A stretch of 64,000 bases of DNA. It comes from Chitinophagales bacterium (GTDB lineage: Bacteria > Bacteroidota > Bacteroidia > Chitinophagales > CAIOSU01). This document shows positions 37,458 through 49,455 of the stretch, piece by piece (position 1 is the stretch's first letter; each line of letters opens with the position of its first letter). A program made the position numbers and the translations under genes. The notes beneath the pieces are model-generated. The model ran no database searches. It was not told the DNA's origin and saw only the letters and a program-made list of their open reading frames with translations. The stretch is from contig BPHB01000001.1 of assembly GCA_026003335.1 (NCBI GenBank), positions 1,448,591 to 1,512,590 on the forward strand, in the 5' to 3' direction.

Positions 37458-38795
37458 TTAATTTTTTTCCTGCAGCCCTGCCAGTTGCAGCAGGGCAGCC
37501 TTCTGCTGAGGTTTATCGTTCAGGAATAGCGACCAGGCACCAAAGTTTTTCACCATGCGGGACACCATAATTCCGATAGCCGTTTCCGGGCAGCCCCATC
37601 CGTGTACATATTGAATGCGCCTGGGGTCAAACCACCAGGAATCCGGTATGGCTTCCCCTTCTATAATGACGGCATACTTTCGCGCAACCTCCGTATAATG
37701 CCATCGTGTGCGAACAAAATGCTGAGCTCGCTGTCCCAATTCGTTTCTGAAAGCTGCATCGGTAACCATCTTTTCAATGGCAGACTCCAACTCATCGGGA
37801 TGCACGAACAGGGAGGGCGCAATATCTTCCTCGGCATGAATTAACCGCAGATGCCTGGCATAATAGCCCCCGACTACTGCAGGTTTACCGAAAAAAGCGG
37901 CTTCGGTGGCAAAGCCGGCCATGGGAGTGTCCGAATACAACTGGTCTATAATAAAATCACACTTTGTGATTTCCTGCAGCACCTGCTCATTGGGCATGTT
38001 CCGGATTTCCACAAACGCAATGGAGTACCGCTGTTTCAGTTTACTGATTACCTCTCTGATTCGGTCGGTGCCTTTCTCCACTGGATTTGAGGGCGCATGC
38101 AGAATGGTAATCTTATCTCCGGCAGGGGGCGGTGGATGTCCTGTAATTGGCTTGATGCATAACGGCACGCCTATGGTTATACCGGAAATAGCCCTGCGTG
38201 TGAGAAACTGAGCGCCACCGGGCCAAATTATTACCCGATGGGCCAGATGTTCAATCAGAAATACCCTTGTTTTTATCCGCATTGTCTGCAGCAGGAGGAA
38301 CAGCATCTGCAGGGGCTTCCTGAGCCGCAAAGCTCTTTTATGCGCTGATCCATCGATGTAAGGCGGCCTGGCATCAGATCCATTGAATACATAAATAATC
38401 TGCTTGCCTGCCAACCGGAGAATGAAAGTATCCACATAAAAAAAGAATGTACTGGCAAAGCCGAATATAAAAACATCATGATGCAGCAATGCCCACACAA
38501 AAATGACGGGGCGCACAACAAAATCCCTGTACATCCGGGCAACTATACCCGCCAGATTGCGCAGAAGCCCTGCACCGCGCCCCCGGGTATTTTGCAGAGA
38601 GCATCGTTCCAGTTTATACAGCAGGGATAAAAGCCTGTTGGAATATCCGCTTCCGTACCGAAACTGATGCTGACTGAGATATAACAGGGTAACCGGATAA
38701 CCCAGCTCCCTCAGCCCCTGGCTTATATAGTAATAATAGCCTGCCACCTCTTTGAGGCCTATAAAAATCCTCTTTTTAGCGGCAGCCCTATTCAA
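37458..38795 (-). CDS. Glycosyltransferase-like protein (GT-B type, divergent)
   Basis: The 445-residue protein starts at TTG 38795, inside the end of the upstream formyltransferase gene (8-base overlap); no ATG fits better. The N-terminal half is RIFIGLKEVAGYYYYISQGL, followed by a hydrophobic stretch near residues 95-130. The C-terminal half reads like a GT-B donor domain: ITILHAPSNPVEKGTDRI, CDFIIDQLYSDTPMAGFATE and FFGKPAVVGGYY. The sugar is unknown. Possibly the N-terminal hydrophobic stretch associates with the membrane. It is the last gene of the long minus-strand polysaccharide unit beginning at 49455. Confidence 0.7.
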   Translation of the reverse strand: MNRAAAKKRIFIGLKEVAGYYYYISQGLRELGYPVTLLYLSQHQFRYGSGYSNRLLSLLYKLERCSLQNTRGRGAGLLRNLAGIVARMYRDFVVRPVIFVWALLHHDVFIFGFASTFFFYVDTFILRLAGKQIIYVFNGSDARPPYIDGSAHKRALRLRKPLQMLFLLLQTMRIKTRVFLIEHLAHRVIIWPGGAQFLTRRAISGITIGVPLCIKPITGHPPPPAGDKITILHAPSNPVEKGTDRIREVISKLKQRYSIAFVEIRNMPNEQVLQEITKCDFIIDQLYSDTPMAGFATEAAFFGKPAVVGGYYARHLRLIHAEEDIAPSLFVHPDELESAIEKMVTDAAFRNELGQRAQHFVRTRWHYTEVARKYAVIIEGEAIPDSWWFDPRRIQYVHGWGCPETAIGIMVSRMVKNFGAWSLFLNDKPQQKAALLQLAGLQEKN

Positions 38796-39714
38796 ACAAA
38801 ATACCCTCCTTAATTTCAGCCGAAGGAGATGTGTAATCGGTAACCAGCAGGGTGCCCCCGAAGCATTTCACCACAAAATCCCCGGTGTGAAATACTTTCA
38901 CTATTTCCCCGATGCGCCATGCCGGATCGTCAATTTTAAAATCAAAGGGCTGCGCCTTCCAGATATATACTTTCTCTTTATTCAGAAGAGTAAACGCACC
39001 CGGATAGGGACGGGTCAGGGCTCTCACCAGGTTGTAAATCTGCAGGGGATTCTGATTCCAGTTAATCAAGCCGTCTTCCGGGCTTCTTTTGGGATAATAG
39101 GTGGGCTCACCGGTTTGCGGAACGCTGGTAAAGTTTCCGGACAGCAGTCTGGGTATCCATTGCAGCAACACCCTGGCGGTGACCAGTGCGTTTTTGTAAT
39201 ACAGGGTCCGGATGTCATCCCATTCGGTGATATCAAAAAACTCATAGTGAAAAACATTGCCGTCATCGGCATTGGGGGTCATTAAAAAATACTGCAGGAT
39301 AAAGCGTTTCTGTCCTTCTATGAGAGACCAGTTGAGCGGAGAACGCCCGCGTCCTTTGGGGAGAAATTCAGCGCTGCCATGTCCGCCCACGGCACCGATG
39401 CTGAGCGTATTCAGGATAGCTTCCGGGAAAAGACGCTGCCAGCCACCCTGTATCAGCAGGTCAAACCGGTTTTGTTCAAAAAACTCCAGGTCTTCTTGTG
39501 ATTGCAGGGAGTATTTGCGGGCATAATATACCGGTATGTGATATGCAGCGGCAAGGTCATCAAAGCGCTTATAGCCGGAAACATTTTGCTGCCGCGCCTT
39601 TTCTTCGGTTAAGGTGACGAAATAGGAAAATGCTATTCCCCGCTTCAGGAGGAACTCAATGATTTCCCATCCCACTTCATGGCATCCGCACATGACGATT
39701 TTTTTCTTGCTCAT
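38788..39714 (-). CDS. Formyltransferase-like protein lacking the usual catalytic Asn
   Basis: The 308-residue protein has the methionyl-tRNA/sugar formyltransferase fold: N-terminal Rossmann part (KKIVMCGCHEVGWEI), the active-site region GGHGSAEFLPKGRGRSPLNW near residues 110-129 and NADDGNV near 148-154, then a C-terminal OB-like domain (EDGLINWNQNPLQIYNLVRA). His112 and Asp150 of the Asn-His-Asp triad are present. The Asn two residues before His is Gly110. Related enzymes transfer formyl from N10-formyl-tetrahydrofolate to a sugar amine. The missing Asn raises doubt about activity or suggests a shifted mechanism. It is preceded by a deacetylase-fold gene (39747). Confidence 0.8.
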   Translation of the reverse strand: MSKKKIVMCGCHEVGWEIIEFLLKRGIAFSYFVTLTEEKARQQNVSGYKRFDDLAAAYHIPVYYARKYSLQSQEDLEFFEQNRFDLLIQGGWQRLFPEAILNTLSIGAVGGHGSAEFLPKGRGRSPLNWSLIEGQKRFILQYFLMTPNADDGNVFHYEFFDITEWDDIRTLYYKNALVTARVLLQWIPRLLSGNFTSVPQTGEPTYYPKRSPEDGLINWNQNPLQIYNLVRALTRPYPGAFTLLNKEKVYIWKAQPFDFKIDDPAWRIGEIVKVFHTGDFVVKCFGGTLLVTDYTSPSAEIKEGILFE

Positions 39715-39746
39715 GATGCTTTACGCATTAGACATAGAGTACCTAG

Positions 39747-40496
39747 TTACCAATCCACTATTAGTCTGTTTGCATTGGCCATGGCCTGCTGATAGTTGTG
39801 TTTTTTCCTTGAGGCCCAGTCATCAATACATTTCCATATCCTTTGTTTGGGCGACATGACTTCACGTTGCCACCAAGCCGGATGTGTAAGCACCTGCAGG
39901 CGCTTGTGCTTACCGCTTTGCAGCACCTCTTCCAGACGTTGGTAAATCCAGTAGCCGTTTGAATCAGAACAATAGCCCACCTCTCGTTTAAAATATTCAG
40001 CATAGACATTAATCAAACCAGCATACTGCCACTCCTTACATTTCATAGTGAAATCATTGGTATTATGAAAGGAAAACACCTGTGGCTTTATTTTAAATAT
40101 CCGCTCCATGATGGCAGCCTCAAAAGTCAGGTATTCTTCAATTTCATGCTCAGACCGTATGTCATAGAAATGCGGGTCAAAGTGAATACCGACAGCATGC
40201 CCTAAATCTATAATTTTTCTCACCAGCAGGGTGATTTCCGGCTCAAGCAAATTATAAAACTCACTATGCAGATGAAGAAAATAGGTGGCCCTGACGTGAT
40301 TTTCTGATTCTATTTTAGCCAGCTCATACGCGCTGTGGACCGAGAAGTCCACATCATGCCTCCAGAGAACGAAATTTTCCTCTTTATTAAAATCCGTATA
40401 GGTTTTGAACAGGTATTTTTCCCGGGCCAGGGATAACAACCGGCCATAGTTAGCATAGGTGAAATCGGAGAAGTGAAATTTTTTCTCGTTTTCCAA
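39747..40496 (-). CDS. Polysaccharide-deacetylase-fold protein (CE4/NodB-like)
   Basis: The 249-residue protein begins at TTG 40496, four bases after the stop of the upstream formyltransferase; no upstream ATG is available. Hallmarks of the NodB fold are WRHDVDFS near residue 46 (catalytic and metal Asp), VGIHFDPHFYD near residue 110 (metal His residues) and VFSFHNTND near 143. Absence of a signal peptide suggests cytoplasmic action on a nucleotide- or lipid-linked sugar. It probably removes an acetyl or other acyl group from an amino sugar. Position between two formyltransferase genes supports a role in exchanging acyl groups. Confidence 0.7.
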   Translation of the reverse strand: MENEKKFHFSDFTYANYGRLLSLAREKYLFKTYTDFNKEENFVLWRHDVDFSVHSAYELAKIESENHVRATYFLHLHSEFYNLLEPEITLLVRKIIDLGHAVGIHFDPHFYDIRSEHEIEEYLTFEAAIMERIFKIKPQVFSFHNTNDFTMKCKEWQYAGLINVYAEYFKREVGYCSDSNGYWIYQRLEEVLQSGKHKRLQVLTHPAWWQREVMSPKQRIWKCIDDWASRKKHNYQQAMANANRLIVDW

Positions 40497-40500
40497 GGTC

Positions 40501-41436
40501 TTATTTTAAGCGTTCTCTGATGGAGTGAATCACCTGAGCCGGTTTAATCCGATGCTGATTTGCAAATGAAACCTCATTCACTTTTAGCTTTCCCTTGCCA
40601 CATATCACAATGACGTGTCCGGCCTTTTTATCAATTTCGGCTATCTGTCCGGGCACTGCAAGATAGTTTTCCTTGTCCTCATAAAGTTCTGCATCCCAGA
40701 TAATCAATTTATCCTCTTTATAGGTACAGAATGCCCCGGGATAGGGCTCTGAAGAGGCATTGATAAGTCGCAATATCTCTATATTGGTTTGCTTCCAGTC
40801 AATTCTTCCGTCTTCCGGATTGCGCGGATAGCAGCGGAGGGCATCTTCCGGACGCGTGGATTGCTTCTGCAGATAGTAATGCGGATTGTTTTGCAAAAGT
40901 GTCACCGCTTCTAAAAACATGTCGGGAATCCGCTCCTGAAACCATTTATAGCATTGCCCGATCTTTGTGTGGACCGAAACCGGGAAATAATCTCTGACGA
41001 TGATGTCGCCTGCGTCAAGATGGAGGCCATCCATTTTGTGAATGCACAGGCCAATGCGACTTTCTCCATTGATTATTGCCCATGCCTGACAGGCATTTCC
41101 CCGGTAGCGTGGCAAATCGCCTCCATGGGCATTCAGAATTCCAAGCTTAAACAAATCAATGGCTTCCTGATTGATAATGGTAGGATAGTTCATACTAATA
41201 CCCAAATCCAGAGGCAATGAGCGCTTCACTTCTTCTATTACCTGCTGATTGAACAGGGTTGAGCACAGGTATCGCGCTCCAATCCGTTCTGCAAGTTCTT
41301 TAAAGCCGGAAGCCCCTATTTTGTATTCGGGAGCTTCTTTTGCCGTGATAATGAGGGGAATCTCATGCCCGGCTTCCAGAAGCTTAAGGGCGCTTTCATA
41401 AAGGGTCTCCGTTCTTCCGATGATGGCAATTCTCAT
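40501..41436 (-). CDS. Sugar N-formyltransferase
   Basis: The 311-residue protein has the complete formyltransferase triad: Asn102 and His104 in LNAHGGDLPRYRG and Asp141 in LDAGD. The C-terminal domain (EDGRIDWKQTNIEILRLINA) is like that of nucleotide-sugar and methionyl-tRNA formyltransferases. Probably transfers a formyl group from N10-formyl-tetrahydrofolate to an amino group on a dTDP-, GDP- or UDP-linked sugar. It is flanked on both sides by deacetylase-fold genes, with gaps of 4 and 8 bases, so it belongs to one translationally tight block. Too divergent from Fmt for a tRNA role, and its neighbours are all glycan genes. Confidence 0.85.
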   Translation of the reverse strand: MRIAIIGRTETLYESALKLLEAGHEIPLIITAKEAPEYKIGASGFKELAERIGARYLCSTLFNQQVIEEVKRSLPLDLGISMNYPTIINQEAIDLFKLGILNAHGGDLPRYRGNACQAWAIINGESRIGLCIHKMDGLHLDAGDIIVRDYFPVSVHTKIGQCYKWFQERIPDMFLEAVTLLQNNPHYYLQKQSTRPEDALRCYPRNPEDGRIDWKQTNIEILRLINASSEPYPGAFCTYKEDKLIIWDAELYEDKENYLAVPGQIAEIDKKAGHVIVICGKGKLKVNEVSFANQHRIKPAQVIHSIRERLK

Positions 41437-41444
41437 AGAGCCGC

Positions 41445-42173
41445 TTAGTATTTCAGATCTGAAATTTGGCAGAATGTAAATCCGCTATTCCGGGCTTGCG
41501 CAATAAGATCTGTTAAGAAGGTGCGCACTCCCTGCTTCCCGTTGTTGCGAAACTCCAGCAGCCGCAACGGATCTTTATGAAACTCCCTGGATTGGTTGTA
41601 GCGCTCCAGCGTTTCGGTGTTCAAAAACACATGGATCGGATGATAATCAAACACCTTAATTCCCGGGCGGGTCAGATATTTGTGTACGCTCCAGTCTGTA
41701 TCCAGACCGTTTTGCAATGCAATGGTGTGCACATCATCTTCCCACATGTAGGGTACCCGAATCATTCCGTTAATTTCTTTGTAAGGATAACATATGATGT
41801 TGCTCCAGAAGGGGATGAACATGTTTAAGTCATATTTCATACCTGCCCGGGCAAACACATTAAAGATGACACTGCTTTGCATCAACGAGTGGGTTCTGAT
41901 GCTGACCGCAGCGGGAAAGGCGCGCTGCAACTCCTCCAGCAGGGTCTGCACCGACTGATTGCCCTGGCCATTTAACAGATTATTGAAATTGGGATGTAGT
42001 CCTATTTCAATCAGAGGATGCTCCACAAGACTGTTTAACAGCGAAGAAGAGTGGGTGACGAAAAATGTTGCCCGAACCTGATGTTCTTCCAGAATGTCCA
42101 GTGTGTCACGGATTACTTCGTCACATGCCCAGTCAATATCAAACGTAAGAAAAATGCTTTTTTCCAGGTCCAT
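41445..42173 (-). CDS. Polysaccharide-deacetylase-fold protein resembling the WbmS type
   Basis: ATG 42173 is chosen (an in-frame TTG lies two codons earlier); it is 2 bases after the preceding stop. The 242-residue protein has NodB-like motifs: FLTFDIDWACDEV near residue 7 (metal and catalytic Asp), EIGLHPNFN near residue 75 and SIRTHSLMQSS near 105. The overall pattern resembles WbmS-type proteins of O-antigen loci. No signal peptide is present. Likely deacylates an amino sugar precursor that the neighbouring formyltransferase (40501) then formylates. That functional link is inferred. Confidence 0.7.
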   Translation of the reverse strand: MDLEKSIFLTFDIDWACDEVIRDTLDILEEHQVRATFFVTHSSSLLNSLVEHPLIEIGLHPNFNNLLNGQGNQSVQTLLEELQRAFPAAVSIRTHSLMQSSVIFNVFARAGMKYDLNMFIPFWSNIICYPYKEINGMIRVPYMWEDDVHTIALQNGLDTDWSVHKYLTRPGIKVFDYHPIHVFLNTETLERYNQSREFHKDPLRLLEFRNNGKQGVRTFLTDLIAQARNSGFTFCQISDLKY

Positions 42174-42175
42174 AA

Positions 42176-43096
42176 TCAAGCTTTAGCGGTTGCCAGAGCA
42201 ATCCCGTCATATCCGAAACGGTTACCGTTATAGAACATATAATAAAGGTCTGCATGCTTTATCACATAAGGGTAGCAGATCATATCGCTATCAAAGCCGG
42301 AGGGTGAAACATCAATGCCGGCAAGGTGATCCAGACGCTTCCACTGCCTGGCGTCTGCAGATTCGGCATATCCTATTCTGTAAGGGGTGTCAACGGTGTT
42401 GTAGGCATACCATGCCTTGTACACCTTTTGCTCTTTGATGACACAGGCCCGTGAAATATCTCTTTCTTTGCTGTGGCAGAAATCAATGGCCACCGTATCG
42501 CGTATCTGCCAGCTTATGCCGTCATCCGATTCGGTGTATTTTAAATGATAAAAGGATCTGAGTCTGCCCTGGTCATCCCTTTCCCATTTTAATCCAGAAG
42601 TATAGAGCATAGCATAGCCGTTGTGCATTGGGAAAACATAAGGAGCTGTTACCAGGCAGGGGGAGAATTCATTTCTTGAAAAAATGGGGGCACGGGAATA
42701 CTTGCGGAAGGTCAACCCGTCATCGGAACTGACGGCCAGTCCGATGGCAGCATAAAACAACGGAGGCTCGCACCCTTTATTCCAGCCGATGTAGTAGAGA
42801 TACAGTTGATTGTTTTTGCTGATAATGGAGGCGGGGTAAACGCCATGCTCATCAAAATACCCGATGTCACCGGGAAGCAAAACCGGCTCTTTGCTGTAGC
42901 GCAAAACCCTGTGGGGGTCGCGGATATCTATCTCAAAAAAACCCACATGGGAATATTGCCGTTCATCCCGTGCTGCGAAATAAATGCGATAGGTGTTTTC
43001 ACCAATGGGCAGCGCTACGGGCAGTTGGCAATGCGACTGCATCCACCAGTGTTCTTTGACCGGTTTAAATATCAGGCCTTTTTTTTCCCATTGCAT
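42176..43096 (-). CDS. Five-bladed beta-propeller glycosidase-like protein of a glycan locus
   Basis: The 306-residue protein has repeated propeller strands: YRIYFAARDERQYSHVGFFE, LYLYYIGWNKG, GLAVSSDDGLTFRKY, YAMLYTSG, YTESDDGISWQI, YAESADARQWKRL and LYYMFYNGN. This is the fold of GH32/43/62/68/130-like proteins. It lacks a signal peptide, and the context is synthetic, not degradative. Members of this group occur in surface polysaccharide loci, where their role is not settled: cleavage, phosphorylase or transferase. It is 2 bases from the WbmS-like gene and 3 from the methyltransferase gene, so it is clearly part of the operon. Confidence 0.75.
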   Translation of the reverse strand: MQWEKKGLIFKPVKEHWWMQSHCQLPVALPIGENTYRIYFAARDERQYSHVGFFEIDIRDPHRVLRYSKEPVLLPGDIGYFDEHGVYPASIISKNNQLYLYYIGWNKGCEPPLFYAAIGLAVSSDDGLTFRKYSRAPIFSRNEFSPCLVTAPYVFPMHNGYAMLYTSGLKWERDDQGRLRSFYHLKYTESDDGISWQIRDTVAIDFCHSKERDISRACVIKEQKVYKAWYAYNTVDTPYRIGYAESADARQWKRLDHLAGIDVSPSGFDSDMICYPYVIKHADLYYMFYNGNRFGYDGIALATAKA

Positions 43097-43099
43097 GCC

Positions 43100-43714
43100 C
43101 TAAGCAGGTTTGGTTACGAGCATAGTCCATTCATACAGGTCATAATCATGGAGAAGCGTCACATAACGGGAAATGTTTTTCTTACAGAAATCAAAGTAAT
43201 AAAACGGGTCAGCATAATAGAGGCCGGGGGCTTTATAGTCCACATAGGTAGTAAGGGCGTTAAAAGCAAAACCCTTCACCGAAAACTGACTCATGTTGAC
43301 AATCATATCCCGCACGTAGGCTTCCCACTTCTGATCATCCTCATCAAACTTGACATTGAAAATACCGGATGCTACGGCATAATCGGCCTGAGATTCAAGT
43401 CTGGACTTATGATACAAAACCACCTCCGGCCCGCCAATGTATTTGCGGGCTGCTTCCAGCATATCGGTGCTGATGTCATAGCCGTAATATTTCTGAATAT
43501 TGTAGCCTGTTTCTTTGCAATATTTATATAGCTCTCCGTAGCCACAACCCACTTCGTTGAGGGTGAAAGGTTCGCTTTTGTTTTGCACTATCTGCAAAAG
43601 CTTATGAAACCGGAGTTGCTGCGATCCCTCCCGGGTCCATCCCACACTGCGCGGATCAATGCCGAATTTCCTGAGGTTTTCAGAATAGAGTTTTTCAACC
43701 TTTTCCAAATTCAT
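43100..43714 (-). CDS. Class I SAM-dependent methyltransferase
   Basis: The 204-residue protein has the SAM-binding signature LNEVGCGYGELYKYCKE near residue 55, the acidic loop YYGYDISTDMLEAARKY and a hydrophobic strand corresponding to motif II (ADYAVASGIFNVKF). The start overlaps the stop of the upstream acetyltransferase by four bases (ATGA), so translation is coupled. Probably O- or N-methylates a sugar of the surface glycan or its precursor; the acceptor is not visible. Confidence 0.8.
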   Translation of the reverse strand: MNLEKVEKLYSENLRKFGIDPRSVGWTREGSQQLRFHKLLQIVQNKSEPFTLNEVGCGYGELYKYCKETGYNIQKYYGYDISTDMLEAARKYIGGPEVVLYHKSRLESQADYAVASGIFNVKFDEDDQKWEAYVRDMIVNMSQFSVKGFAFNALTTYVDYKAPGLYYADPFYYFDFCKKNISRYVTLLHDYDLYEWTMLVTKPA

Positions 43715-44367
43715 GATTCAGCTTTCTTGGTATATACGGAGGCCTTCACACCTATCAGCGTTTGATGGGGTTCGGTATCTTTTACAATCAGGCACCCGGC
43801 ACCTAACACGGTTCCTTCTGCAAGTGTAATACCATCCCGAAGCGTAGAATTCACGCCCAGAAAGCAATAGTCTTTAATCCTGCAATGTCCTGAAATGACA
43901 ACGTGCGAGGAGATGAAGACATGATTGCCGATGACCGAATGATGCCCTATATGATTGCCACTCCACAAAATGCAATTATCTCCTATTTGCACGAAAGGCT
44001 GTAATACATTAGCCTCAAAAATAAAACAGTTTTCTCCTATGGATTTTGCATAGTTCACCGCCCGGGAGCTCACATAGGTGAGTAACCGATAGCCTTTGGC
44101 TTTGGCTTCATGGAAAAAACGCTCCCGCACCCTGTTGTTTTGCTGATAGCCCACAGCGATATGCATCTCATAGCTATCCGGTGGATAGCGTTTTTCTATC
44201 TCCTCAAAGGGCACAAACGGCTTGTTGAAGAGCACATCCGATTTCACATAGTCACGTGTGCTGGTAAAAGCCGCTACTTCGTATTCGCTGTCGGCTTCCA
44301 GCAGGTAGGCCATCACCTCCGCCTGGCCTGAGGAGCCAAATAGTATTGCCTTTTTTGTCTTTTTCAT
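43711..44367 (-). CDS. NeuD/PglD-like sugar acetyltransferase
   Basis: The 218-residue protein has a Rossmann-like N-terminal sugar-nucleotide part (KKAILFGSSGQAEVMAYLL) and a C-terminal left-handed beta-helix of hexapeptide repeats (FVQIGDNCILWSGNHIGHHS through ITLAEGTVLGAGCLIVKDT). The histidine in GNHIGHH corresponds to the general base of PglD-type N-acetyltransferases. It probably acetylates an amino group on a UDP-linked sugar with acetyl-CoA. It overlaps its two neighbours by four bases each (ATGA), a tight operon. Confidence 0.85.
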   Translation of the reverse strand: MKKTKKAILFGSSGQAEVMAYLLEADSEYEVAAFTSTRDYVKSDVLFNKPFVPFEEIEKRYPPDSYEMHIAVGYQQNNRVRERFFHEAKAKGYRLLTYVSSRAVNYAKSIGENCFIFEANVLQPFVQIGDNCILWSGNHIGHHSVIGNHVFISSHVVISGHCRIKDYCFLGVNSTLRDGITLAEGTVLGAGCLIVKDTEPHQTLIGVKASVYTKKAES

Positions 44368-45428
44368 GCTTGCGTATTGAAGGGAAAAAGGTAAAAGTTC
44401 CGGAAGGTATCCATCAGCTGCTGCCGGGGAAGCTGCAGCACAGATTTATCCAGCACTTTTGTAAAATACCTGTAAGGTTTATCCACGGCACCCCAGCGTT
44501 TTTTAAAATCATACACTCCTTTTTGCGTGAGCCATGTTCCACCCCAGTTCCAATAGAGAAATCCGCGTTTCACGGCATCTTTCATGGCCTCAAAAATAAG
44601 CAATGATAACGGTTGCAGATTCCTGTACTCATACAGGATAGCAGGAGTAAAGTATTCAACGGTTCTGTTGAAATAAAACAGTAACAGACCGGCTACGGGA
44701 GTTTTTCCCTGATAGGCGATAAACACTGCATACTCCTTCGGCCCGAAAAAATCGGGTATAAGGGTAAAAAACGCTTCCCGTTTGGGGAGCCCGCCTATGT
44801 CCTGTATGTTTTTCTCATGCACCTTGTATAAGAAGCCCAGCGCACCGGCATCATGATGTATCTGAAATGTAATGCCTGACTTGAGGGCCTTTCTTATATT
44901 TCTGGGTCTGGGGTCTGAAAACATGTGCATCAATTCCACGCCTTCTTCACTGACGGCTTCCGGAAGCCGGGTAATCTGTCCGATACGCTGGTCGGTGTAG
45001 TCGGGAGCAAAATGCTGTTCCAGCCAATTTTCGCTCTCCGGATCAAACGGATTGCACACTATAGTTACCAAAACAGCGGATAAAGAACGGGCGTACCCGG
45101 TAATTTCCCGCAAACAATCTTCACGTAAGCGGTTTTGCTCTTGCACCGGCAACGTCCGGGAGATGACGAAACCTCCGTTACTGCCATAATAAGGAAGCGA
45201 ATTAAATACCGTACCCTGCTCCGCAGACTTATATAAAAACGGCATGGTTGCTATCAGCTCATCATCGTGCCAGCAGGTGAAATACACCGACTGGGCATCC
45301 AGATGTTTCTTTAATAATCTATGATAAGATAAAGACTGATAGAAGAGGGTGCTTTCGTGCCGAAGTAAAAACTCTTTGTACGCGGGCGCTTTATCTGGTG
45401 GAATATCATCGTAGATTTTCCAATGCAT
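44364..45428 (-). CDS. GNAT/FemAB-like acyltransferase
   Basis: The start is set at ATG 45428 (MHWKIYDDIPPDKAPAYKEF); 35 more codons upstream are open but overlap asnB deeply. The chosen start overlaps the asnB end by 23 bases. The 354-residue protein resembles the FemAB/GNAT double-domain group (Acetyltransf_6): YQSLSYHRLLKKH, FTCWHDDELIATMPFLY, LPYYGSNGGFVIS in the first half and EYAVFIAYQGKTPVAGLLLFYFN, FLYWNWGGTW in the second. Such proteins attach amino acids or acyl groups to amino sugars. The exact donor is unknown. Confidence 0.7.
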   Translation of the reverse strand: MHWKIYDDIPPDKAPAYKEFLLRHESTLFYQSLSYHRLLKKHLDAQSVYFTCWHDDELIATMPFLYKSAEQGTVFNSLPYYGSNGGFVISRTLPVQEQNRLREDCLREITGYARSLSAVLVTIVCNPFDPESENWLEQHFAPDYTDQRIGQITRLPEAVSEEGVELMHMFSDPRPRNIRKALKSGITFQIHHDAGALGFLYKVHEKNIQDIGGLPKREAFFTLIPDFFGPKEYAVFIAYQGKTPVAGLLLFYFNRTVEYFTPAILYEYRNLQPLSLLIFEAMKDAVKRGFLYWNWGGTWLTQKGVYDFKKRWGAVDKPYRYFTKVLDKSVLQLPRQQLMDTFRNFYLFPFNTQA

Positions 45429-47319
45429 TTTTATCAAAGTTTCTTTCGAGAAATATCCGGCACCACCATTCAAAGCATAAAAAAGACCAGATGACCAACC
45501 GGTGATTAATTCGCTGATTGATGTGCTCGTCAAGAATTTTTTTTATGTATTCCGGTCTTATAAATTCCGTACATACTGTTTTTCTTTGCAACAACAATTC
45601 CTTGACATACTGAGCATTTCCTCCCCTGTACCATGATTCGTCCGGAGCGGAAAATCCCTGTTTCTTTCTGTTGATTACCTGGGCAGGCAAGATATCTTTC
45701 ATCGCCTTACGGAGTACGTTTTTCCCATCATCAAACTCCCGGTAAAAAAGCTGCTTCTTCCCCAGTATGTTCTCATCCAGTTTTTTAAAGTGCTCCAGAT
45801 TGCCCAGCTTATACCGGACAGGCACTTTTTGCGCAAATTCCACAAGGTCGTTGTCCAGAAAGGGAAAACGCTCTTCCAGCCCATTGGCCATAGACAGCTT
45901 ATCGCCCACAATCAGCAATCCCGAAAGAAACGTTTTTATTTCAAAATACAGGCTGTTCTGGATGTGCTGTTCCGGAGTGTCATATTTAAGATGCTTGTTG
46001 AAGGTAAACACCTTTTCAAAGACCGAACGGGGGGCGTTAAGGTCAATCTTGCTGAGCACGGAATCCTGAAAGAGGCTTGTCTTGTCCTGATCGGGCACCA
46101 GACGCTGCCAGAAGTGATAATAGTTTTCAAAAAAACTTTTTTGGTCCAGAGAGCGGAAAACGCGATAGTAGCGCCACGGGTAACCGCCATAGAGCTCATC
46201 ACCACCGGTGCCCTGCAGGCAGACCTTCACAAACTTGGACGCCAGGCGGCTGATATAGAACTGCGGATAACTCATACCCACCCGCAAATCTTCCAGATGC
46301 CACACCACTCTGGGTAATGACCAGCCCAAATCACCGGCATTAATCACCTGCTCATAGTGTTCGGTTTTGTAATAACTGGCCAGCAGTTCGGCATCTCTTC
46401 TTTCATCATAGTTTGCCTCTACCCCATCCACTTCAGACATATCAAAACCTGCAGTGAAAGTGGGAAACCTGTTGAGGTGTCGGGCAGCCAGAGCCGTGAT
46501 GGAGCCTGAATCCATACCCCCCGACAAGTAACAGCCCACCGGAACATCAGACACCAACTGCCGGCACACCGCATTCTCCATCAGTCTCCGCGTTTCATTG
46601 GTTGCCTCTTCAAAAGAGATGGACTCATCGGGGTTGGAAAAGTCATAGTCCCACCAGGAATGATGTTTTACAAACTTTGAGTTTTTGTCCAGCCTGACAA
46701 TGTTAGCCGGTGGCAGCAGAATGATGCCCTGAAAGAGGGTATGAAATCTGAAGAGATTCTGAAAAGTAAAGTATTCATTCAATGCATCCAGATTCAGAGA
46801 CACGTGGTAATCAGGATGCTCCAGGATGGCCTTTATTTCAGAGGCAAAGACGATAGTTTCCCCGTTAAACCAGTAGTATAAAGGTTTTATGCCGTAGCGA
46901 TCTCTGCTGAGAAAAAGCTCTCCGGTATCCTTTTTCCAGGCGGCAACGGCAAACATGCCGTTTATGCGCTCAAAAAAGGCAGGTCCGAATTCTGCCAGAC
47001 CTTCCACGAGGACCTCCGTATCCGAAGAGGAAACAAAAGCATGGCCTCTTGCTTTTAGGAGTTGCTTAAGCTCCAGGAAATTGTAAATACAGCCGTTGAA
47101 GACGATAGTCCAGTTGCCGTCAGCGGAAGTCATCGGCTGTGCTCCCCGCGGGGAAGGGTCAAGAATGGCCAGTCTGCGGTGCCCCAGACCGATATTCTCG
47201 TGCACGAAATGCCCCTCTCCGTCCGGACCGCGGTGACTTAAAGCATGGGTCATTTTTTTCAGCAAGGGAAGCGAAACCGGACGTCCGCTGAAATTAAAAA
47301 TTCCGGCTATGCCACACAT
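45406..47319 (-). CDS. asnB: Asparagine synthase (glutamine-hydrolysing)-like amidotransferase, second copy
   Basis: The 637-residue protein starts MCGIAGIFNFSG, with the nucleophile Cys exposed after Met removal. The glutaminase domain (1-200) has LSHRGPDGEGH. The synthetase domain (about 230-620) has the ATP loop YLSGGMDSGSI and GTGGDELYGGY. It differs clearly from the copy at 33957 but has the same architecture. Its operon position, with an acyltransferase overlapping its end and an aminotransferase 4 bases before its start, argues for glycan amidation rather than amino-acid supply. Confidence 0.9.
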   Translation of the reverse strand: MCGIAGIFNFSGRPVSLPLLKKMTHALSHRGPDGEGHFVHENIGLGHRRLAILDPSPRGAQPMTSADGNWTIVFNGCIYNFLELKQLLKARGHAFVSSSDTEVLVEGLAEFGPAFFERINGMFAVAAWKKDTGELFLSRDRYGIKPLYYWFNGETIVFASEIKAILEHPDYHVSLNLDALNEYFTFQNLFRFHTLFQGIILLPPANIVRLDKNSKFVKHHSWWDYDFSNPDESISFEEATNETRRLMENAVCRQLVSDVPVGCYLSGGMDSGSITALAARHLNRFPTFTAGFDMSEVDGVEANYDERRDAELLASYYKTEHYEQVINAGDLGWSLPRVVWHLEDLRVGMSYPQFYISRLASKFVKVCLQGTGGDELYGGYPWRYYRVFRSLDQKSFFENYYHFWQRLVPDQDKTSLFQDSVLSKIDLNAPRSVFEKVFTFNKHLKYDTPEQHIQNSLYFEIKTFLSGLLIVGDKLSMANGLEERFPFLDNDLVEFAQKVPVRYKLGNLEHFKKLDENILGKKQLFYREFDDGKNVLRKAMKDILPAQVINRKKQGFSAPDESWYRGGNAQYVKELLLQRKTVCTEFIRPEYIKKILDEHINQRINHRLVIWSFLCFEWWCRIFLERNFDKNALENLR

Positions 47320-47323
47320 GTAC

Positions 47324-48463
47324 TCAAAAAGATTTCAGCGTTTCCACTATGTATGCAAAGTCAGCAGCATCCATTTTATTATGCAGCGGAATAGCCATGG
47401 AGCAATCATTGGCTATCCGCGCATTGGGATAATCATCGGGTTTAAAGTCGTATTTTTTTGCGTAGTAGTTCAGCATGTGCACGGCATGGGTTCCGGGTCT
47501 GGTGCTGATACCTTTTTCCTGGAGCTGTTCCATGATTTTATTTCTGGGCATCGGAGCCGAAGATTCATCCACGATAGTGACGAATGACTGCCAGCCGTGA
47601 TCGGATTCTGCGGGCACCAATGGCAGGCGCAGCCAGTTAACGCTTTGCAGCTCCCGGAAGTAGTAATCAGCCCAGTGTTTGCGTTCCTGTATAAAGCGGT
47701 CTAACTTTTTAAGTTGCACCATGCCCAGAGCGCCCTGCAGGTCGGTCATGCGGTAATTAAAACCCATCACCTTAAAGTCGGGCAAAATATAAGGTCTGGG
47801 ACCCCGGTGGCGTTGCTCTTCCGAAACCGAAGCACCGTGGTTGCGCAGGACATCCACCGTTTGGGCAAGCGCATCATCATCAGTCGTAATCATACCTCCT
47901 TCACCGGTTGTAATGGCTTTTCTCGGATGAAAAGAAAAACAGGCCATCGTGCCAAGGCCTCCGGCAGGCCTGCCTTTGTATCCGGCTCCTGATGCACAAG
48001 CTGCATCTTCAATAATCGGGATGTTGCCCGCCACAGCTTTTATGGCATCCATATCAGCACAGAGTCCAAACAGGTGCACGGCAATAATGGCTTTTGTTCT
48101 GGGAGTGATTTTCCTTTTAACTTCCTCAGCAGCTATATTAAAGGAGTCAAGGTGTATATCGGCAAAAACGGGGGTGGCTCCGCAGTAAAGCACGGCATTG
48201 GCTGTGGCTACCCAGGTGAAGGCCGGAACAATGACTTCATCACCGGGTTTTACGCCCAGCGCCAGCAGGCTGAGATGCAGCGCTGTAGTGCAGCTGGTTA
48301 CCGCAATGGCATTTTTCACCTGATGCCGTTCTGCAAACAGCCGTTCAAATTCTTTTACTTTGGGTCCCTGGGTGAGCCATCCGGTGGCAATAGGCTCCCT
48401 GAGGGCATTCCACTCCTCTTCGCCCATCACGGGCTCGGAAATATTGATTTTCCTTGGCTTCAT
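47324..48463 (-). CDS. DegT/DnrJ/EryC1/StrS-family nucleotide-sugar aminotransferase, second copy
   Basis: ATG 48463 is chosen because it overlaps the stop of the epimerase gene as TAATG and gives the usual family start (KPRKINISEPVMGEEEWNAL); 33 further in-frame codons lie inside the epimerase gene. The 379-residue PLP enzyme has TSCTTALHLSLLALGVKPGD, IEDAACASGAGYKG and the PLP lysine in CFSFHPRKAITTGEGG. It probably aminates a 4-keto or 3-keto sugar made by the preceding epimerase/dehydratase-family enzyme. Confidence 0.92.
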   Translation of the reverse strand: MKPRKINISEPVMGEEEWNALREPIATGWLTQGPKVKEFERLFAERHQVKNAIAVTSCTTALHLSLLALGVKPGDEVIVPAFTWVATANAVLYCGATPVFADIHLDSFNIAAEEVKRKITPRTKAIIAVHLFGLCADMDAIKAVAGNIPIIEDAACASGAGYKGRPAGGLGTMACFSFHPRKAITTGEGGMITTDDDALAQTVDVLRNHGASVSEEQRHRGPRPYILPDFKVMGFNYRMTDLQGALGMVQLKKLDRFIQERKHWADYYFRELQSVNWLRLPLVPAESDHGWQSFVTIVDESSAPMPRNKIMEQLQEKGISTRPGTHAVHMLNYYAKKYDFKPDDYPNARIANDCSMAIPLHNKMDAADFAYIVETLKSF

Positions 48464-49455
48464 TACACCAGCTCCGTGGTCTGTCTGGCTTTCAGCGCCT
48501 CTTTGTGTGTATTTCTCCACTCTATTAGTTTTTTCATTCCTTCTTCCAGTCCGATTTGCCACTTAAACCCGAGGTCTTTTTCGGCTTTCTCGGTGCTGCC
48601 TATTCTGTTGGTAACAAAGGTTAAACCGGCAGGCTCATACTGGATATCTATAGATTTTCCGGAAAGCCGGATCAATAGCTCAGCAAGCTCCTTAATTGAC
48701 GTTCCGATGCCGCGGCCAACATTGTAACAAGCGCCCGATACATCGGCTTTCATAGCACATATATTCGCCCGCGCCACATCTTCCACAGCAATAAAATCAT
48801 ACTGCTGGCTTCCGTCACCATAAATAACCGGTTTTTCATTTCGGTCCAGGCGGTCCAAGATCTTATGCATAACGGCAATGTAGGCGCCCTTATAGTCTTG
48901 TCGCGGCCCATACACGTTCATGTAACGCAGGCCTACCCAATTCAACCCATAGCGTTTGCCCAAGGAATGAAACATTTGCTCTCCGGCAATTTTGGTGGCT
49001 CCGTAAAATGTATCATTATTAAAAGGATGGTCTTCCCGCATAGGTATTTCCACCGCATTACCATACACCGAAGCGCTGGAGGAATACACTACCCGTTGCA
49101 CTTGGTTTTGAATAGCCGACTCTATCACGTTAAAGCAGCCCCGTATGTTCACTTCAAAAGCCGAGCGGGGATAGTCATGACAATGCAGCAACCACAGGGC
49201 TGCAAGATAAAAAACCCCATCGGTGCCTTTCATGGCAGCATTGAGAATATCCTGGTGCAGGATATCGCCCCCAAGCTCAAAAACCTTGCATCGGGGATCA
49301 CGTAGGGCATTTTCAATATTATCCAGCCGCCCGCGCGAAAAGTTATCGTAAATCACCACCTCTTTTACATCTTCCGCAAGCAGCTGATCTACCACGTGCG
49401 AGCCAATGAAGCCAGCGCCTCCGATCACAAGAAATTTTTTACCTCTGATATCCAT
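48463..49455 (-). CDS. NAD-dependent nucleotide-sugar epimerase/dehydratase
   Basis: The 330-residue extended SDR protein has the nucleotide-binding loop VIGGAGFIGSHVVDQLL (residues 10-26), an acidic residue at the end of strand 2 (VVIYDNFSRG), the catalytic Ser region YSSSASVYG and the YxxxK pair in DTFYGATKIAGE. It belongs with UDP-glucose/UDP-GlcNAc 4-epimerases and related dehydratases; specificity cannot be fixed by reading. It is the first gene of the twelve-gene minus-strand polysaccharide operon running to 37458, with a candidate promoter about 210 bases upstream. Confidence 0.88.
   Translation of the reverse strand: MDIRGKKFLVIGGAGFIGSHVVDQLLAEDVKEVVIYDNFSRGRLDNIENALRDPRCKVFELGGDILHQDILNAAMKGTDGVFYLAALWLLHCHDYPRSAFEVNIRGCFNVIESAIQNQVQRVVYSSSASVYGNAVEIPMREDHPFNNDTFYGATKIAGEQMFHSLGKRYGLNWVGLRYMNVYGPRQDYKGAYIAVMHKILDRLDRNEKPVIYGDGSQQYDFIAVEDVARANICAMKADVSGACYNVGRGIGTSIKELAELLIRLSGKSIDIQYEPAGLTFVTNRIGSTEKAEKDLGFKWQIGLEEGMKKLIEWRNTHKEALKARQTTELV

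Follow-up and report, generated by a model that had tools for sequence, protein, structure and literature searches.

Many bacterial surfaces carry N-formyl sugars, and the formyltransferases characterised so far act on amines made by aminotransferases. The stretch of DNA analysed here (the window: 64,000 nucleotides from a Chitinophagales bacterium) raises the question whether some N-formyl groups might instead replace N-acetyl groups, since it contains an operon in which two genes for formyltransferase-fold proteins alternate with two genes for NodB-fold proteins. An exchange of this kind, if true, would explain N-formyl groups where N-acetyl starts, e.g., at C2 of UDP-GlcNAc-derived sugars, and genomes could then be read for such N-formyl positions.

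The block lies towards the end of a surface-glycan operon

A sequence-only reading had placed four alternating open reading frames on the minus strand, and both their order and their coordinates were borne out. From 42173 down to 38788, the block encodes a WbmS-like NodB-fold deacetylase (WbmS; 41445–42173), the canonical sugar formyltransferase FT1 (40501–41436), the divergent NodB-fold hydrolase DA2 (39747–40496, with a TTG start), and FT2 (38788–39714), a formyltransferase-fold protein of the subfamily described below. The gaps between neighbours are 8, 4, and 32 bases. The start of WbmS is the alignment-backed ATG at 42173 rather than the TTG at 42179 chosen by the open reading frame finder. 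We refer to WbmS and FT1 as pair 1 and to DA2 and FT2 as pair 2, with the NodB-fold protein as the presumed deacetylase and its partner as the presumed acyltransferase. Absence of signal peptides, also claimed by the earlier reading, is consistent with simple hydropathy, by which none of the four proteins has an N-terminal hydrophobic segment of signal-peptide strength.

The block forms the downstream end of a same-strand run that starts with genes for an SDR nucleotide-sugar epimerase/dehydratase (48463–49455; Epimerase PF01370, with galE at 162 bits and LegB at 152 bits, both below cut-off), a DegT sugar aminotransferase (47324–48562; PF01041, E 9.5e-119), and an asparagine-synthase-like (AsnB-like) amidotransferase (45406–47319; TIGR01536, E 2.8e-125; PF00733) with a probable role in uronamide or other amide formation. 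The same operon continues with a FemAB/GNAT acyl- or aminoacyl-transferase (44364–45533; PF13480 and PF02388), a PglD/NeuD-type sugar N-acetyltransferase (43711–44367; TIGR03570 above cut-off, E 1.9e-51), a methyltransferase (43100–43714; Methyltransf_11), and, upstream of WbmS, a GH32/GH43/GH130-like protein (42176–43096; PF00251, E 2.6e-5). Directly downstream of FT2, also on the minus strand, lies a probable glycosyltransferase gene (37458–38795). It has no Pfam match of its own and shares 22–26% identity with the genes at the same place in two of the loci described below (L139 and L118), of which the L139 gene matches Glycos_transf_1. Adjoining the operon are genes for a flippase and another glycosyltransferase, as well as a second DegT/AsnB set. 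The locus is thus a surface-glycan locus. At 0.43–0.51 per kb, the G+C content of the operon is near the window mean of 0.473 and gives no clear sign of foreign origin.

Two neighbours deserve mention. The GH32/43/130-like gene encodes a glycosidase fold in a biosynthetic operon, where it has no obvious role, and the run FemAB-PglD-methyltransferase-GH-WbmS is kept in four Bacteroidia loci (L052, L056, L061, and L062). Many WbmS loci have, next to DegT/SDR, a gene about 70% identical to the AsnB-like gene; the SDR-DegT-AsnB trio is thus conserved as a unit and may serve to make an amidated amino-sugar.

Pair 1 consists of a WbmS family member and a canonical formyltransferase

The product of 41445–42173 is a clear member of the WbmS family and, by family assignment, a putative de-N-acetylase. 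It matches PF22537 with E 2.7e-67 and 226.8 bits (cut-off 27) over profile positions 1–185 of 186, and Bordetella WbmS (PDB 3hft) with E 4e-61, keeping the FDIDW, HPNFN, RxHS, and HPIH motifs. D15, H61, N63, H96, and H179 are invariant among 15 homologues. The protein has HPNF in place of the classical H-x3-H metal motif and thus lacks the second His.

FT1 and FT2 both exceed the Pfam cut-offs for the N- and C-terminal Formyl_trans domains, and in a profile search of solved structures ArnA was the best match of both. FT1 carries ILNAHGGDLPRYRG, and its Asn-His-Asp (N-H-D) triad, N102/H104/D141, is invariant among 11 homologues. Misannotation of FT1 and FT2 as sugar enzymes when they are the housekeeping Fmt was considered and rejected, as the genome has, outside this locus, two other, far higher-scoring Formyl_trans genes.

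Pair 2 combines a divergent NodB-fold protein with a remodelled formyltransferase

DA2 matched no Pfam family at E 0.01, Polysacc_deac_1 included, and no NCBIfam model. Its AlphaFold2 model (pLDDT 92.9) has a NodB/CE4 fold: Foldseek retrieved NodB/CE4 deacetylases, with a chitin deacetylase-family protein as best match (E 8e-7), and VIA gave Z values of 9–13 to many CE4 members (up to 12.9), among them 10.6 to 3hft and 10.8 to ArnD. In the homologue alignment D48, D50, H105, D107, H144, D178, and H205 are invariant. The second His of H-x3-H is missing here as well; position 109 is not conserved, and an invariant D107 is found instead (H105-F-D107). With the second metal-motif His absent, metal-dependent hydrolysis by DA2 is no more than putative.

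The model of FT2 is ArnA-like (Foldseek E 3.8e-26, TM 0.81), but its active site departs from that of ArnA. Where ArnA has AFNLHGS, FT2 has AVGGHGSAEFLPKGRG, i.e., the triad Asn is replaced by Gly, giving Gly-His-Asp (G-H-D). In addition, a second conserved His, which we take by our own count to correspond to ArnA His133, is replaced by Phe. The Gly is shared by every one of the six sequences in the close FT2 alignment, and among the 107 formyltransferase genes of the collected loci 49 are G-H-D and 55 N-H-D. The second position follows the same division, with His in 55 of 55 N-H-D proteins and Phe (48) or Leu (1) in the G-H-D proteins. On a tree built with the two diagnostic columns left out, at least three changes account for the Gly/Asn/Ala pattern, and a DA2-linked FT2 group of ten forms a clade (support 0.97). 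Of the 57 solved matches, five were aligned residue by residue, and all five have Asn at the triad position. This Asn is held to be essential in the relatives of FT2, and the subfamily thus poses the question of how a formyltransferase-fold enzyme works without it.

Further G-H-D genes, with the motif GxHASLLPxYxGG, form a second group located between AsnB and WbmS (L057, L058, L070, L076, L084, L087, L091, and others). Together with an FT1 gene after WbmS, they give a mixed layout FT(GHD)-WbmS-FT(NHD).

The alternating order recurs in distant genomes

Scanning 84,980 species genomes with the WbmS profile yielded 80 loci. The search for the four-gene order that the earlier reading had recommended was successful: the complete order WbmS-FT-DA2-FT is present in three other loci, from Roseivirga echinicomitans (L139), a Cytophagales MAG (L118), and a Rickettsiales MAG (L117). 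Six distinct loci have WbmS-FT-DA2 followed by a different fourth gene (L060/L120, which are one record, L090, L093, L099, L119, and L125). The R. echinicomitans operon shares with the window DegT (63% identity), AsnB (69%), FemAB (38%), FT1 (46%), DA2 (49%), and FT2 (57%). Both L118 and L139 have an FT2 of the same clade as that of the window; the fourth gene of L117 encodes a formyltransferase of the N-H-D type, with only 30% identity to FT2. With three further occurrences, two of which include an FT2 of the window's clade, the four-gene order is more than chance.

That the two pairs arose by tandem duplication can be dismissed, given that WbmS and DA2 have no significant sequence similarity and FT1 and FT2 are 26% identical. 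By this comparison, the pairs represent independent modules rather than products of duplication.

Both deacetylases exchange their acyltransferase partners

The gene directly downstream of WbmS (n = 85) encodes an N-H-D formyltransferase in 23 cases, a PglD-type protein in 12, a FemAB-type protein in 5, and other proteins in the rest; thus, wherever a formyltransferase directly follows WbmS, it is N-H-D (23 of 23). Downstream of DA2 (n = 27) the corresponding genes are G-H-D formyltransferases (7), N-H-D formyltransferases (3), PglD-type genes (2), and others, including WbqC-family genes. Members of the ten-member FT2 clade lie directly downstream of DA2 in all 10 loci. Such varied acyltransferase partners are expected if the deacetylase product is an amine for re-acylation. 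Moreover, when only the 64 WbmS genes flanked on each side by 4 kb or more are counted, 27 lack a formyltransferase within 6.5 kb, which weakens a role of WbmS as an obligate deformylase. Partner swapping and formyltransferase-free WbmS loci are predicted by locus-specific re-acylation and not by an Arn-type deformylase.

In three loci (L093, L101, and L119), the gene directly after DA2 belongs to the WbqC family (PF08889), which suggests WbqC as a further possible partner for group transfer to the freed amine.

G-H-D formyltransferases are coupled to deacetylases

Where loci had been collected by way of a deacetylase, 26 of 31 G-H-D genes are at most two genes away from one. Such a collection is biased, so a further sample was drawn with formyltransferase profiles as the only queries. 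All 18 G-H-D genes of this sample, for which one of the query profiles (A6) itself contained PIG-L-paired members, lie within two genes of a same-strand deacetylase, 15 of them directly adjacent, compared with one of 11 N-H-D sugar formyltransferases (Fisher p ~5.5e-7); the numbers are small, and the loci come from related genomes and are phylogenetically non-independent. Several of the N-H-D controls come from nonulosonic acid loci, where they adjoin NeuB or CTP-transferase genes. The partners of the 18 G-H-D genes are PIG-L (14, Pfam-confirmed in 11 loci and assigned by a local profile in the other three), DA2 (3), and WbmS (1). PIG-L (PF02585) is a third, unrelated deacetylase fold that adjoins relatives of FT2; these neighbours had first been guessed from gene size and were tested afterwards. 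A relative with Ala at the triad position, A-H-D/F (L189), has no deacetylase nearby.

Two proposed pairs for N-acyl exchange and the alternatives

Taken together, these comparisons make it probable, though by no means certain, that the block consists of two deacetylase-plus-acyltransferase pairs, following one another in an operon for surface glycans, which exchange N-acyl groups. The SDR, DegT, AsnB-like, and PglD products would provide an amino-sugar, probably bearing a carboxamide and acetamido groups, for later editing. In pair 1, WbmS would act in the cytoplasm and remove by hydrolysis the N-acetyl group from a sugar intermediate, whose freed amine FT1 would formylate from N10-formyl-tetrahydrofolate, so that pair 1 probably turns N-acetyl into N-formyl. 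In pair 2, DA2 would free another amine, at a second position or on a different sugar, and FT2 would re-acylate it. Formyl is the likeliest group, and a formyl donor for FT2 is likely but not assured; the remodelled active site makes this step less certain than that of pair 1. The proposal of the sequence-only reading, that each deacetylase frees an amine which its partner formylates, thus gives the best fit to the comparative data. It is well supported for WbmS and FT1, which keeps N-H-D; DA2 and FT2 are a real pair too, but with no catalytic Asn in FT2 and no second metal-motif His in DA2, formyl transfer and metal hydrolysis are no more than putative there. The two edited positions may lie on one sugar, but two different residues would look the same. 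Substrates, reaction direction, and positions are inferred, the order of reactions not being readable from gene adjacency.

An Arn-like transient formylation would reverse this order: the formyltransferases would protect an amine made by DegT, and the NodB-fold proteins would remove the formyl group after transfer, as ArnA and ArnD do for L-Ara4N. The ArnA match of both formyltransferases, the DegT aminotransferases in the operon, and the Bac_transf gene often found between or beside the pair in PIG-L/formyltransferase loci agree with this. So does the resemblance of the DA2 model to ArnD, which ranks below many de-N-acetylases; the Z values are close, however, so that the fold of DA2 is not decisive. 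We nevertheless regard transient formylation as unlikely: the hydrolase is not restricted to formyltransferase loci and, as a deformylase, would be idle in the 27 WbmS loci without one, and PglD or FemAB acyltransferases often take the place of the formyltransferase after both deacetylases. The exchange reading could also be true of pair 1 only. FT2 and its subfamily would then transfer another acyl or one-carbon group, or have a regulatory or scaffold role, coupled to deacetylation, and N-formyl groups would come from pair 1. The switch from Asn to Gly is complete and that from His to Phe nearly so across 49 G-H-D and 55 N-H-D proteins, with His and Asp kept; none of the five residue-aligned solved structures is G-H-D, and the coupling to deacetylases is near-constant. 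Yet FT2 retains the ArnA-like fold and the C-terminal domain, and in three loci (L117, from the Rickettsiales MAG, L146, and L243) an ordinary N-H-D formyltransferase follows DA2, suggesting the same kind of product, and we consider a non-formyl role improbable. Frequent gene shuffling in O-antigen loci and the many neighbours that differ between loci might even suggest that glycan-modifying genes have come together by chance in a hypervariable locus and are not functionally paired. This is hard to reconcile with distant taxa keeping the same order with near-zero gaps, with an FT2 clade directly after DA2 in every one of its loci, and with the difference between 18 of 18 and 1 of 11 in the formyltransferase-seeded sample, and it appears very improbable.

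Returning to the exchange of N-acyl groups by both pairs, we tentatively extend it to a wider proposal, which we hold with some doubt: FT2 may stand for a formyltransferase-superfamily branch (Gly-x-His ... Phe ... Asp) that is yet to be characterised, whose catalytic site has been remade for tandem work with deacetylases and which has been paired independently with WbmS, DA2, and PIG-L. Bacteria would thereby have a modular and general means of N-acyl exchange on their surface sugars, and its mechanism or donor may differ from that of known formyltransferases.

Relation to known systems

WbkC, QdtF, VioF, WlaRD, and PseJ share the Formyl_trans fold, are among the solved matches, and belong to surface-glycan pathways. 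Their substrates are aminotransferase-made amines and their triad is Asn-His-Asp, whereas FT2 has Gly-His-Asp and Phe for the second His. The ArnA/ArnD polymyxin-resistance pathway likewise has an ArnA-type formyltransferase and a NodB-fold hydrolase acting on the same sugar. However, Arn formylates first and deformylates once the sugar is on undecaprenyl phosphate, whereas the deacetylases considered here often occur without a formyltransferase or with other acyltransferases, and Asn102 of ArnA is missing from FT2.

WbmS and sugar formyltransferases are already known, as is their presence in O-antigen loci of Bordetella. The wbm loci, as described in two papers, contain WbmS and formyltransferase genes (PMC3849452, PMC12243275), and one of these also lists aminotransferase, asparagine-synthase, and methyltransferase genes (PMC12243275), a gene set similar to that of the operon analysed here. 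The WbmS of the window is a homologue (E 4e-61) of the wbm protein (BB0128; PDB 3hft). These descriptions include neither an alternating WbmS-FT-DA2-FT block nor a tested WbmS activity; this comparison is by description, Bordetella being absent among the 80 loci. The earlier reading knew of no described system with the doubled alternating layout. Our literature search, which covered mainly open papers, found no account of it either, including under PIG-L/LmbE, GalNFmA, and 2-formamido. In these papers, neither the block with its doubling and alternation, nor its recurrence, nor a G-H-D subfamily tied to deacetylases was encountered.

The combination of a PIG-L/LmbE de-N-acetylase and a neighbouring G-H-D formyltransferase follows the same logic of deacetylase and formyltransferase fold in glycan loci. 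It differs in that the deacetylase fold is unrelated, the pair is single, and some loci have a Bac_transf initiating transferase. In L178, L176, L223, and L225, a short gene adjoins those for the G-H-D formyltransferase and PIG-L, and in L178 and L176 this short gene encodes a Bac_transf initiating sugar-phosphate transferase. This hints at an exchange on the sugar that starts the repeat or on its lipid-linked form.
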